Shown here one piece after another: positions 21,194 to 42,109 of a DNA stretch of 64,000 nucleotides; position 1 is the first letter of the stretch; the number at the start of each line of letters is the position of its first letter. The translations under genes and the position numbers were made by a program. The notes under the pieces are model-generated. The model had not been told where the DNA came from. It ran no database searches and saw only the letters and a list, made by a program, of their open reading frames with translations. The stretch lies in the NCBI GenBank assembly GCA_025093555.1, contig JAIWNF010000006.1, forward strand, positions 930,001 through 994,000, in the 5' to 3' direction. Origin of the DNA: Circinella umbellata (lineage: Eukaryota > Mucoromycota > Mucoromycetes > Mucorales > Lichtheimiaceae).

Positions 21194-23242
21194 CTAACTT
21201 ATTGATACATTTTTATAATCACTATCAACATAAGATCCATGAAAAGTACTGATATTATATGTACCAATATCACAGCGTGCTATTTCTTGCATTGTGCGTC
21301 CGTCCAAAATTAGCAAAAAACTGCTATCTTCCTCGGGTCCAATTTCACCAATCACGTTGACCAAACATACAACCGCTCCTTCGTCTTCAGAATGATTGTT
21401 GCCATTATCATCAGCGATATACTTTTTCTTGGGTACAAATATGGGTTCCGAGCAAGAGTAACGTGGTTTGTTATATGAAACAATGGTACCCGACTCCATA
21501 TCAATTTTCACCAGACTGTATCGCTCAGCTTCTTTTGTTGCTGATGGCTTCAAAAGTTGACATCCCCACACGAATCGATTTTGTCGTAGTGCATAATGTT
21601 GTGAGAACCTTGGGAATTCGATATTATATGCAATCGTGGTATAGGATCCGGAACCATCTGTAAGATCTCGATTCCATGAAAGACGATATCGTCTTAAATC
21701 TCCAAAAGAAGGTTGTCGAATAGGTGGAAAACTAATACCCATAGGCCTTGTTTGTCTTTTATCCGTCGTTGTTGCTATAGGTACGGAATGATCCGATCCA
21801 CGCAAATAAGTACCAAAACTATGGAGTTGATAAATAACATCTGCATTGGAAAATGCACAGGTATCCAAAATAATTACTGGGTTACCGTTCTTGTCATCTA
21901 TTGTGTCCCAGGAATTTCCATGGTGGAAACTGAAGAAGTTGTCGACAGGAATTGTAATTACGTGGCCAATGTCTGGGCGGCGACTAATAATATGAAAAAA
22001 GGTAGGCGATTTTTCATCCCAAACATAGCTGCCAACAGCATTGCCCGCAAATAAAATGTCGGCATTATTGTAGTAAAGTGGTGATTCAGGAATAATAACA
22101 TGATTTTGGGTAAGCATAAATGCATGTATAAAGCTTGGTCGAATTCTTGTACCGAAATGACGATTATTCTTGTTGGGTAACTTTCGATGAGTAATTTCGG
22201 CTAGTATGGATACTTGTCCTGAACGGCTAATGGAAAAAACAATCATTTTTGGCACAGGTCCAAGATGGATAGTGTAATTAAATGTTTCTTCGGTAATGGG
22301 ATCGTATTGATGGTGCGATGAAGATAGATCTCCATTGAGTCTCTTGTCATAATCGCTGTAATCATACAAGCGTTTTGGTTCTTTTATTAAACACAAATTA
22401 TATTTATTAGCCTTCTTGTTGCTTCTAATGAATTCTTGCTTTAAAATCATAAATAATAAAAGAAAAAAAAAAGCGTTCTTACCAAGAGTGTTTGCATGTA
22501 TTTGTTGTAAAACGTTAAGATCCGTTTTGGAGACAAGATGATGCTCACCAAGCAATTCTTTTGATCTTTCAACCCAATTTACAGGCATAGGAAAATTAGG
22601 CGTTGGTGTAACACCGACCATCATTGACGATGGATCACTACGATCAATAATACCGCTAAAGAATATTTCTCGAAAACGCTGTACTGTCGCGATACATCGT
22701 TCCCATATTGATAAATTTTGTACATGACCAAAAAATACAGAGGACTTGGAACGTTTCTCAATCATTTGACGCTCAAAAGATCCAGCCAAATTTCTTGCAT
22801 TATATCGTACAGCTTGTCTCTCAGAAGAGAGCTCAAAACGATGCATAAAAGGTAAACCATCAAAAGCATGTTTAATCATGACCTTACTTTCACCAAGATT
22901 ATATTTTCCCGGACCTAAAAAATAAAAGAGGTTAATAATATTCATACTAAGTAAGAAGATAAACAAATAGCAAGAAGGCGAATTGTTGTAATGTACTGTA
23001 ATAAAAACATATAAGCTTTATCTTTATTACTTACCGATACGATACATGACCCCACTCAGCCATTGGGGAATAACACCTTGAATAGGAATCCAGACAGGTT
23101 CAGGTACTTCTTTAGCATTACGAAATATATTGCCTTGTTGTACAATATTCAATTCATCAATAAATCGATAGATCCTGTTAATTGAAATCATGAATTTGTA
23201 GCCACCAACGATGGTCAATATTGATAACACTATATATAGCAT
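21194..23242 (-). CDS. Carotenoid cleavage oxygenase (CarS/AcaA-like candidate)
   Basis: Three exons: 23242-23035, 22914-22483, 22380-21194, totalling 609 codons (608 aa). It is a seven-bladed-propeller carotenoid oxygenase (RPE65/CCD family). The four Fe(II)-binding His can be placed: in SHHQYDPITEE (H236/237), PSFIHAFMLTQNHVIIPE (H299), FFSFHHGNSWD (H366) and near the end FHGSYV (H594). In Mucorales, such enzymes cleave beta-carotene in steps to the apocarotenoid precursors of trisporic acid, the mating signal. Which step this copy performs cannot be decided by eye. The first ~18 residues are hydrophobic and may anchor it to membrane. The start is less certain than the rest because an AG|GATC acceptor-like site lies inside the first exon. 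Confidence 0.9.
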
Positions 23243-37044: not shown

Positions 37045-38851
37045 TCAACAAGTAGAAGTATCCACATAAATAGTTTTCGGCTTTTCAAAACCAGCAAAAT
37101 GACAAGTAGCAATTGCATACGCCCCCAAGTTTTCAGCATAGATCCAATCGCCTATATTTAAAATGGGAAGCTGTATATTCTCACCAAGACAGTCCTCTGG
37201 TTCATCTGTATGACCCCATACAGTACTGGGATACGTTTCTTCATCAGTTTGCCTTTCTCCATAAGTATAAATACCGTTTCTCATTAACACTATAAGGATT
37301 ATAGTAACGTGTGATATATTAAAATTAGATACATGTGATAAAAGTAATGATACTACATACTTTCATACGAAGAGGAATATTCTTTGTATGGAGCTTCTGT
37401 ATTTAATATAGAATACCTCTCAAATCAATTACGTCGCTGTAAAACAATCTGGTAGCAAATGAAGAATGTAAAAGATCATTTACATAATCTACTAGTATAA
37501 GGAGCAGCAAATATTAGTAATAGTAGTAGCATAGCAGCAATATTTTATAATCAATTAAATTTTAAATATATCCCAAGTACTTGCATATATATTTTTTGTT
37601 TGCTGTTGCTTTAGTATTCTTATCGCACGACTCTTTTGACACTATTTTTCGTCCAACTACCTGGCAGCACAAAGCCAAGGTAGATGTTGCATAATAACGC
37701 CCAGGCTCTGCAATGACTTGAACATCTGATGGAAATAATGAGTCTATTTCGTCACGAATTACTGAAGCGATTTCCTCGAATGATGGCTTTTCAGGATAAT
37801 CAACTCCAAAGAACCCACCACCAATATCAAGTAAGTTACAATTGAAACCAAATTCTTTCGCACGATCGAATATTGTACGAGAGTTTTGTAAAGTACTTTG
37901 ATAAGCACTTACGTTCGAACACCCACTACCAACATGAAAACTGTCGTACGTACAGAAAAAAAAAAGCAAATTAATATTGTTGCTGCTATAGGTATAGTTT
38001 TAGAAAAAAAAGAAATATTATACTCGTTGTTAATACCTGACCCCAACAATATTCAAACCAAGTGTTTTTGCTGTCTTTAATAAATTATCAACCTCAGACA
38101 TTGGCGCACCGTACTTGATTCCCAATCCCCATTTTGCTTTTGTATCATCAGTCAAGATTCGTAGCAAAAGTTTAGCAGCCGGATAATGCGTTTTGATTTT
38201 ATAAAGTTCATCGATATTATCAAAAGTCATTTTATGTACTCTACAATCAGCTGCAAATTTCAAATGGGAAACTTGTTTACAAGTATGAGCATAGATAATT
38301 TTTGAAGGATCAGCTCCATGATTTAATACCAATTGTATTTCTGGTCCACTAGCACAATCAAAGCCTAAACCAAGTGATACAAGATATTGGATAATTTCAA
38401 TATCGGGATTACATTTGACAGCTTTATAATATAACAATAATGAGTATTGGGAAAAAATAATAGTATTGATTGTGTTACGTAGTATATTATATTATATATA
38501 TATATATATATATATAAAAGTTGAAAATATTTCGAGTATATTACCATAATAAGGCTGGATTCGTGGAAAACACTTTTTCCATTTTTGGTGCTGTAACGTC
38601 AATTGCCCTAAATCAAGTATATAAAACGAATCATCTTGTACTGGATTATTTTTATTCGATATAGTAGTGGTTTCTAACTCTTTCTTGATTGCTTCTTTTA
38701 TACACTTTGTCGGTTTGTTTGTGGAATTACAAATGTTACGAACTTGTTGCTTATTTGTATTAAATTTACTTGATTCACTATTATTATTATTATTATTATG
38801 TAAATCTTGCTTGGAAATCGAAGAGTCTGTGAGTAATGAACCGATCAACAT
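37045..38851 (-). CDS. Ornithine decarboxylase paralogue A: PLP site kept, catalytic Cys lost
   Basis: Five exons: 38851-38545, 38421-38037, 37940-37585, 37488-37417, 37289-37045; 455 codons (454 aa). Fold-type III PLP decarboxylase (eukaryotic ODC). Intact: PLP Lys in YYAVKCNPD, FDCAS, LLLRILTDD, HVGSGC, GGGF and EPGRYY (the Glu that pairs with the PLP ring nitrogen). Lost: the WGPTCD loop reads VWGHTDEPEDC, so Cys360 and Asp361 (mouse/T. brucei numbering) become Asp and Glu; the Y323/D332 region reads LLHSSFATRLFYSD, so both appear replaced. ODC makes putrescine, the first polyamine step. This copy resembles antizyme-inhibitor/prozyme-like regulators more than a normal enzyme. Intron 3 has a GC donor (GCAAGT), supported by the paralogue's exon of identical length. 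Divergent from paralogue B. Confidence 0.92.
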
Positions 38852-40433
38852 TTGTAATATTGTTTTGAGTAAATCATTAAACTGAAAAATCTAAAACAAC
38901 AAGTTTTCTTAAAAAAATTAAAAAAGAAAAAGAGATTACCCTACTACCAGATCCTCCTCTTCATATCATCAATTATACTCCCTATGCAACATTTCACCTG
39001 CAAGAGTATTTTGCATATTGCATATTGCGTATTGCATCTAAAACTAAATTGTAAACCCAGTTACAGTATTGTGATCACTGTTTTTTAGTATTACTCTTTT
39101 GTTACTATGATGTAATTTTTTTTGAAGATTCCTGATAACTAGTTACTAATTGGCTACACTAATTACTTTATTTTGCTCTTATATCACATATTACACACAT
39201 AATAGTTACTTATTATGTAAAAAAAATAATTAAGGAAATTTCATTTCATAAAAAACAATTGTACTATCAAATGCTATTTGTGATTTAGGGTTAAAGAAAA
39301 TCGTTATTGCAGTCCGAAAAATGAGGTCTAGACTGCATAACACTGTATACAACAGGTCAGCACCAGCAATACGATTAGCTATATGTTGCGATCGTAATGT
39401 TATTACATAATTCACAGTATAATAGTTGTAATTATCTATTAATAATTAATCTCTCTCACCCCACAAAGAAATCAAAATAATATACTGATTACAATTTCTA
39501 ATTGATTCACAATGGCATGGGGATGACAGATATTCACAAAGGAAAACTCCTAAATTTATTAGCTTTAAATGCATGCAAATATAAATTAATAAACTGGGCG
39601 CCCAGTACAATTCAACTAATCCTTTATTTCTAAAACTGTTATATATTTTTTAAGAGGTAGTTCAATAAATCATGTTGAGGAGTTCCTGCATGTATAAAGG
39701 TATATTATGCATTCGCGGAATTACTTTTTTCTTTTAGATAAATGATGACGATACTTCAACGGCAGAAATTCATATGATGTTCTAAATAAAATTCGGTTGA
39801 ATAGCTTCTTTATTTGTTTCTGTTGGCGTTAGAAAAGCTCCTTGATTTTTTTTCCCTCTTCATCTTTTCTGCGTTGTTTTGCATGTGGTCAATCCCCTAC
39901 ATCATATTTTTGAAAAAAAAAAAAAAAAGTTCACTGATAAGTACTGATGTATTTAATACTATACCTTTAGTAACAAATAAATAAAAAATAATCTTCAACC
40001 TTATCAAAGAACATAATGCGTTAATTTCTGCAGGCTACACCAACTAATAAGTACTATTACTTTATATATATATATATATATATACCAGAATTGTTTTCTC
40101 TTTCCCAATAGTGACTAGTACGTAGTACTTTTTGATATATAAGAAGCATACATCTCACATGAAAACAAAAATGGTATTTTAACAAAACTTTGCTTGTAAT
40201 CCACCATCATTCAGAAAAGTTTTCTCACCAAAACAGTTCTACGTATCTTTTTATATCCAACAAAAATACAGCAATAATAAAAACAAATGCTCGTTACTTT
40301 AAATCATACCATTCCATCACAACTTGCTGTTTCTACAGCATTAAATAAATATAATGATTCATCTACTACTATAGTAGTTAATTCAACCTATTAGCATAAT
40401 AAGAAGAAAAAGAATTGTATCAAGAATGCCATT
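38852..40433. promoter_or_regulatory. Shared divergent intergenic/promoter region of the ODC pair
   Basis: About 1.6 kb between the two head-to-head ODC starts. AT-rich with a TA run near 40064-40084. At its right end, codons from ATG 40287 to TAG 40392 look like the lost N-terminus of paralogue B (Thr/Ser/Asn-rich, then STY-stop) before the usable ATG at 40434. Confidence 0.5.
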
Positions 40434-42109
40434 ATGGAAAAACTAAAGTCTGCTACGTTAAACAAAGAGTTAGGACAAGACGATAGTTTTTATATTCTTG
40501 ACTTGGGACAATTATATCACCAGCATCAGAAATGGAAACGTTCTTTTCCAAGAATTCAACCTTATTATGGTATATTAAAATAGTATTTTTTTTTTATTTA
40601 CGTAACTAATTATATAATATAGAGGCTCTCTTCTGTCAAAAGGAAAAATACTAAACTTTATATAACTTGTTTATTCCGTGTCATATAATCTATTTTTTTT
40701 TTCTCAGCCATCAAGTGTAACTCTGATCCAAAAGTCATCCAGTATTTAACTTCATTAGGGTTTGGTTTTGAATGTATTAGTGCATTTGAAATGAAAAAAA
40801 TTCTAGACTATGGTGTTGATCCATCCAAAGTTATATTTAATCATACATGTAAACCACCTTCTCATATTAAATTTGCTGTTAATCACGGAGTACTTAAAAT
40901 GACTTTTGATACTATTGATGAACTTTATAAATTAAAAAAATTCTATCCAAATGCCGAGCTTTTGTTACGGATATTGACGGATGATTCAAAATCACAGTGG
41001 GGAACCGGCGATAAATATGGAACAGACATTAATTATGTTAATGAACTATTAAGTACCGCTCGAAAACTCAATCTAAATATCATAGGGGTCAGGTAAAAAT
41101 AATACCCATTTTTTTTTCTTTTGTTGTTATCGATAAAGATAAATTATGAGTACGTAAAAACAGAAAAAAACAAAAAAAAACATGGCAACCATTGATTTAA
41201 CAGTACTCTAATAATATACAGTTTTCATGTGGGTAGCGGATGTCTTGATACTGATATATATCAAGATGCGTTAAAAAATGCAAAATTCGTTTTTGATCGA
41301 GCAAAAAGTTTTGGATTTGATTTTAATTTACTGAATATGGGTGGTGGGTTTATTGAAGTACACGACAATACTAAGAAACCATCATTTGACCAGATTGCAT
41401 CTGTGATTCAGAAAACTGTAGACTTGATGTTTCCATCCAATGTTCAAATTATCGCTAGTCCTAGTAGATTTTATGTAACACCTACACTTACAGTATGTTT
41501 CCAAGTTGTTGGGCGTAAAATACTTGATAATAACCAACCTAATAGACATAAGAAAGCTGAACATAATAAGTACATGTGTAAGTTTTTAGTAAATATTCAC
41601 GGGGGGTTTTTTTTTCTTTCTAATTAATGTAAGTAATAATAATTTATAGATTATGTCAATGAAAGCTTACATGCTTCATTCGCGTCTAGATTATTATATC
41701 GTGAATCACCAGTAGACTTAAAAGGTCATTCTTTTTTTTATGTTTCTATGTATTATATATATGATAGCAAAGGAGCTAAAAATAATATTTTGTTTATAGT
41801 AAAATATATTCAAACCAAAAATTAAATCAATGTAACGTTCTAATATTTTTAAAAAAAGTAGTGTTCATGAAGAATGGAATTTGTGTATATCATCAAGATC
41901 TCAAAGAAGAACAAACCTATTCATCTATTGTTTGGGGTCACACGTGTGAACCTGGGGATTGTCTTACAGAAGATATCAGACTTCCCCTATTGAATATAGG
42001 AGATTGGTTATATACAGAAAATATGGGTAGTTATATATGTGCTAACTCACAATTCTGTGGTTTCCAACGACCAACGACAATTTATATTAATTCTTTTTGT
42101 AAAGATTGA
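40434..42109 (+). CDS. Ornithine decarboxylase paralogue B: catalytic Cys kept, PLP-site Glu lost
   Basis: Five exons: 40434-40569, 40708-41092, 41222-41577, 41650-41724, 41862-42109; 400 codons (399 aa). Exons 2 and 3 are exactly as long as in paralogue A (385 and 356 nt), so intron positions are shared. Kept: PLP Lys (YYAIKCN), HVGSGC, GGGF, Arg of SRFY and Cys in VWGHTCEPGDC. Changed: EPGRYY to SPSRFY (PLP-ring Glu274 to Ser, Gly to Ser), FDCAS to FECIS, LDIGGG to LNMGGG, Asp361 to Glu, and the Y323/D332 positions (SLHASFASRLLYRE). An in-frame TAG at 40392 cuts off an older N-terminus that aligns with paralogue A. The exon 4 donor GTCATT is weak. Either a partner subunit, a pseudoenzyme or an early pseudogene. 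Confidence 0.9.

Follow-up and report, generated by a model that had tools for sequence, protein, structure and literature searches.

Complementary active-site losses in two head-to-head, diverged ornithine decarboxylase paralogues of Circinella umbellata

The stretch of Circinella umbellata DNA analysed here, 64,000 nucleotides of contig JAIWNF010000006.1 (assembly GCA_025093555.1, positions 930,001 to 994,000) and hereafter called the window, carries two genes, A and B, for diverged paralogues of ornithine decarboxylase (ODC), the textbook example of an enzyme in which two subunits together form the active site. A lacks Cys360, and B lacks Glu274 and other residues of the face that binds pyridoxal 5'-phosphate (PLP). 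An earlier note, made from the letters of the DNA alone, had placed the two genes head to head, had listed their residue changes and had described the losses as complementary at two active-site faces; spliced models confirm the orientation, and alignment and codons confirm the changes and their complementarity. From these features of the sequence we favour, at a probability of about 0.4, a heteromer in which A would hold PLP and a partner, either B or a canonical ODC of the same genome, would lend Cys360. We think it somewhat unlikely that this takes the narrower form of a natural, obligatory A:B heterodimer with exactly one composite site (the PLP face of A and Cys360 of B), brought about by reciprocal loss in old paralogues, using some substrate that is not ornithine and possibly standing within a wider mix-and-match set of seven subunits that share sites in trans.

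A and B are members of the ODC-fold family (fold III; Orn/Arg/DAP decarboxylases). Both Pfam domains, PF02784 and PF00278, score above their cut-offs (23.4 and 23 bits) in A (275.2 and 45.5 bits) and in B (238.7 and 60 bits), and both proteins align to Trypanosoma brucei and mammalian ODC across nearly the whole fold. In the residue numbering of T. brucei ODC (chain 1njj), A has K69, D88, R154, H197, S200, G235-G237, E274, G276, R277, Y278, Y389, F397 and D364, and deviates by D360, E361, H358 and H323. B has K69, R154, H197, S200, G235-G237, R277, Y389, F397, D364 and C360, and deviates by E88, I90, S274, S276, F278, E361, H358 and H323. The PLP lysine (K69) and the HVGSGC motif are kept in both, as had been claimed. 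Set against a canonical ODC, both chains carry K69, H197, S200, G235-G237 and R277; neither combines E274 with C360, A having D360 and B having S274; and both lack Y323, D332 and D361, the residues that hold the ornithine side chain in ODC. Position 332 is read with its alignment, since one alignment places Tyr there in both copies and the other Tyr in A and Arg in B; no Asp stands at 332 in either, and an acidic residue follows one or two places further on in both. Residue 274 is encoded by GAG in A and AGT in B, residue 360 by GAT in A and TGT in B. A change of Glu to Ser (AGT) takes three base substitutions and one of Cys to Asp two or more; judged from these codons, S274 and D360 are therefore not one-base sequencing errors.

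The exon structures of both genes were spliced by hand, guided by homology and without transcripts. Gene A (minus strand, 38851 to 37045) encodes 454 amino acids in five exons with no internal stop. Exon 1 (38545..38851) holds the start codon, an N-terminal extension and FYILDLG; exon 2 (38037..38421) K69 at 38414-38416, D88 at 38357-38359 and R154; exon 3 (37585..37940) HVGSGC, GGGF and E274 at 37706-37708; exon 4 (37417..37488) H323, with no Asp at 332; and exon 5 (37045..37289) WGHTDEPED, in which Asp replaces C360 at 37204-37206, then E361, D364 and the stop. Intron 3 of gene A, after exon 3 (37489-37584), has GC-AG boundaries with the donor GCAAGT, and the matching introns in the models of the other six ODC copies of the genome begin with GT. 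Gene B (plus strand, 40434 to 42109) encodes 399 amino acids, again in five exons with no internal stop. Its exon 1 (40434..40569) begins with the ATG at 40434; exon 2 (40708..41092) holds K69 at 40713-40715, Glu for D88 at 40770-40772 and R154; exon 3 (41222..41577) HVGSGC, GGGF, Ser for E274 at 41457-41459 and Ser for G276 at 41463-41465; exon 4 (41650..41724) H323, with no Asp at 332; and exon 5 (41862..42109) WGHTCEPGD, with C360 kept at 41945-41947, E361, D364 and the stop. The start codons are 1582 bases apart, across a shared divergent upstream region (38852..40433) in which we found no direct repeat family and only six short imperfect inverted pairs. A short open frame at 40287..40394 (plus strand), in frame with B and closed by a TAG at 40392-40394, is either an upstream open reading frame or a piece of an unrecognised exon and intron.

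The asymmetry between the copies is clear at the 15 positions that we take as the PLP face (67, 69, 88, 154, 197, 200, 235-238, 274, 276-278 and 389): none differs from T. brucei ODC in A and four differ in B. One of the four, Y278F, is also found in another copy of the genome (C68) and in three bacterial relatives, which leaves three. Seven comparators from outside the genome were used: T. brucei, human and five bacterial relatives (L023-L027). All seven have E274 and all seven have C360, while F278 occurs in three and E361 in two (L026 and L027). Since F278 and E361 occur among these comparators, neither is to be counted as a loss, and D361E reads as a change of substrate or loop rather than as decay; of the earlier claim that both copies had lost D332 and changed D361, the absence of both residues stands, with this qualification for the latter. 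The five bacterial relatives served as comparators only and came from a scan of prokaryote genomes, in which 108 stretches fitted the search pattern and five encoded a relative, all bacterial; a scan of viral contigs gave 44 fitting stretches, of which none was confirmed as a relative. Both scans were queried with an alignment of six of the seven copies of the genome (C189 left out). Each of the seven copies retains K169 and D364, which we take to form a salt bridge between the subunits of the ODC dimer.

A maximum-likelihood tree of the proteins, with the ODCs of T. brucei and human as outgroups, makes A and B sisters (support 100/100), places them beside the diverged copies C130, C189 and C68 (85/82) and sets C135 and C150 apart (98.6/95). 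The branch of B measures 0.49 and that of A 0.39. Parsimony places the changes at 323, 358, 361 and 332 before the A/B split, C360D on the branch of A, and E274S, G276S and D88E on the branch of B. The two proteins are identical at 217 of 360 aligned residues (60%), and of 59 fourfold third bases 23 are the same in both genes (0.39, where saturation would give 0.30); sites so close to saturation make the duplication old. This history suggests a scheme for the proposed heteromer. The ancestor of A and B would have been a single, already specialised ODC paralogue (Y323H, P358H, D361E, D332 lost), duplicated locally in inverted orientation long ago; A would then have given up Cys360, which in ODC each subunit contributes to the other, and B the PLP-face residues (E274S, G276S, D88E). 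A would bind PLP and substrate, the latter probably not ornithine, and would dimerise with a subunit carrying Cys360 to give a catalytic site: either B, which may be co-expressed across the shared upstream region and whose own barrel would be idle, or a canonical ODC. The same shared changes (H323, E361 and that at 332), most simply dated before the duplication, could instead mark two separate homodimeric PLP enzymes of altered chemistry or substrate. A would then make use of Asp360, and B would tolerate Ser274. The constraint on both copies described below and the presence of E361 in two distant relatives agree with this, but such a loss would be unusual in a working homodimer when E274 and C360 are each kept throughout the comparators outside the genome, and from the sequences we hold separate enzymes to be distinctly improbable.

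Decay of both copies towards pseudogenes, which had also been raised as an alternative, was examined with a codon model of the seven copies of the genome (360 codons). A ratio of nonsynonymous to synonymous rates (omega) of 1 is rejected on the branch of A (twice the log-likelihood difference, 11.2) and on that of B (13.8). Separate values for A, B and the stem before their split gain only 1.6 log-likelihood units over a single omega of 0.057. Because saturated synonymous sites destabilise the branch fit for B and for the stem, we rely solely on the two rejections of omega = 1, those for A and B. They speak for purifying selection on both copies, seemingly over a long time, and neutral decay along the full length of either branch can be dismissed; a loss of function in A or B that happened recently would escape such tests. 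Some traits do recall decay: otherwise conserved residues are changed, B has a short N-terminus, an in-frame TAG upstream and a weak donor at intron 4, and another copy, C189, has a frame break. Against these stand frames that are open across all five exons, with intron positions common to other copies. With 60% of residues still identical where synonymous sites are near saturation, and omega = 1 rejected on both branches, we consider two decaying copies very unlikely.

If the site of a dimer were served by A's PLP face only, the barrel of B should be the freer to change, and it is the more changed. In the barrel (residues 45-283), 73 columns do not vary among T. brucei, human and the remaining five copies of the genome; of these, two are changed in A alone, 12 in B alone, seven in both and 52 in neither (two-sided binomial p = 0.013). 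With the five fungal copies as sole comparators the barrel gives 4 for A alone, 16 for B alone, 23 for both and 66 for neither, and the tail 0, 3, 7 and 27, respectively. The barrel skew fits a dimer that would use only A's PLP site, and to this extent the earlier proposal of a one-site A:B dimer holds; what does not hold is a matching degeneration in the tail of A, which is not degenerate beyond C360D. The further statement that each homodimer would be dead was too strong, as ODC active-site mutants reportedly have strongly reduced rather than zero activity.

ODC-family genes were searched for in the whole genome (50.8 Mb in 210 contigs, the window being part of contig C167). PF02784 gives 13 exon-level matches that resolve into seven genes, and PF00278 gives seven matches, one per gene, both counts being lower bounds. 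The seven ODC-family genes are A, B, C135, C150, C130, C189 and C68. C135 and C150 are canonical, with the full set at the tabulated positions and Phe for Tyr at 331; the earlier note had advised a search for such genes. C130, C189 and C68 are further diverged paralogues. C130 (145000-149800, locus L011) has an intact PLP face and WGPTGC for WGPTCD (C360G, D361C); its loss of Cys360 is separate from that of A, so that the cysteine supplied in trans has gone twice independently in this genome. C189 (842500-848000, L012) has WGPTCC, shows HVGSEC where HVGSGC is expected and loses its frame directly after EPGR; it may be a pseudogene, or else the assembly is wrong there. C68 has WGQACT, N332 and F323. 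Altogether, residue 361 is changed in five of the seven copies and Cys360 is lost in two. An antizyme gene lies on contig C131 around 310926-311006 (L015). Its six-frame match is weak (17.6 bits, E 0.114, below the Pfam cut-off), and a hand-spliced model with three introns scores 37.3 bits against a cut-off of 24.2; a simple pattern look for a TCCTGA site at this gene found none. With two canonical ODCs and an antizyme gene present, A and B could pair with each other, and either of them could pair with a canonical ODC or with antizyme.

These findings bring in a close rival to the heteromer, namely that A and B would be pseudoenzyme regulators that pair with a canonical ODC in a prozyme-like or dominant-negative manner, or soak up antizyme as an antizyme inhibitor does, the lost residues being irrelevant. 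This is a quite possible reading of the sequences. It agrees with the two canonical ODCs and the antizyme gene and with the repeated losses across the family (361 and Cys360), and constraint on A and B needs no catalysis. It sits less well with A, which retains all 15 PLP-face residues examined although a pure regulator could do without them. Both A and B still have R277 and Y389, presumably dimer-promoting residues whose equivalents monomeric AZIN1 has lost; this departs from what is expected of an antizyme inhibitor, and neither protein has Lys at 125 or 140, which we take to be AZIN1 traits.

Several observations weigh against the heteromer that we favour, above all in its A:B form. The canonical ODCs are alternative partners, and because both could complement A or B too, the A:B pair need not be exclusive. 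Even a composite A:B site would be altered, as 323 and 332 are changed in both copies. E274 is lost in B alone among the seven copies, while C130 too has lost Cys360. Among 25 conserved tail columns, from which position 360 is excluded because C130 has Gly there, none is changed in A alone, two in B alone, four in both and 19 in neither: apart from C360D, the tail of A has no mirror-image decay. B may just be the faster-evolving copy, with which the polarised differences are compatible (31 in B and 19 in A over the barrel from residue 37, p = 0.12; 16 and 13 in the tail). By our own arithmetic, two key losses fall into a complementary arrangement by chance in one half of cases, a coin toss. 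Furthermore, for the stem that precedes the A/B split the test fails to reject omega = 1 (twice the log-likelihood difference, 0.12), saturation makes the omega values themselves unreliable (fitted synonymous divergence of B about 53, stem omega about 12), and the donor of B's intron 4 is the weak GTCATT.

The window has a GC content of 28 to 36% (in 4-kb steps). Pfam assigns a family to seven of the ten long open frames searched: thaumatin, RabGAP-TBC, Na/H exchanger, VBS/GIT1_C, RPE65, Nop and response-regulator receiver. The RPE65-type oxygenase frame (21194-22966, 210.9 bits) is presumably as in the carotenoid or trisporoid metabolism of Mucoromycota. Rfam gave no matches in the window. 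A scan with NCBIfam yielded nothing but matches far below its curated cut-offs. Elsewhere in the genome, six-frame matches to IucA/IucC-type siderophore synthetases lie at C149:309790-310356 and C183:101196-101849, one of them with an internal TAG. They may stand for rhizoferrin synthesis, a pathway that would consume putrescine; we considered but set aside the idea that the diverged ODC copies serve it, since nothing beyond these two matches supported it.

Should the heteromer prove true, a natural gene pair with split halves would display in evolution what the mixing of mutants reportedly displayed in vitro, and would offer a clean system for how paralogues become locked into a heteromer; should A and B prove to be regulators, the fungus would have its own counterpart of the antizyme inhibitor. 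Among known systems, the eukaryotic ODCs (T. brucei 1njj/1f3t, human 2on3/4zgy, mouse 7odc) share with A and B the residues K69, R154, H197, S200, R277, Y389, K169 and D364, and differ in that A is without C360, B without E274, G276 and D88, and both without Y323, D332 and D361. AZIN1 (3btn, 4zgz) is likewise an ODC paralogue with lost catalytic residues and an antizyme in the same genome, and 3btn matches A and B with E-values of 3.7e-75 and 3.3e-76; yet ODC scores higher for A and B (332.8 and 305.4 bits) than AZIN1 does (256.5 and 259.9). In the trypanosomatid prozymes of AdoMetDC and deoxyhypusine synthase, an inactive paralogue activates or completes the other copy. The logic of a paralogue pair would be the same here, any activation between A and B being putative, but the prozymes belong to other enzymes and folds, and in our case both copies are defective and lie head to head. 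A further parallel comes from the laboratory, where the ODC mutants K69A and C360A, once mixed, reportedly regain one site per heterodimer: there too the two faces come from two subunits, whereas the losses in A and B are natural, lie in old paralogues and involve E274 instead of K69.

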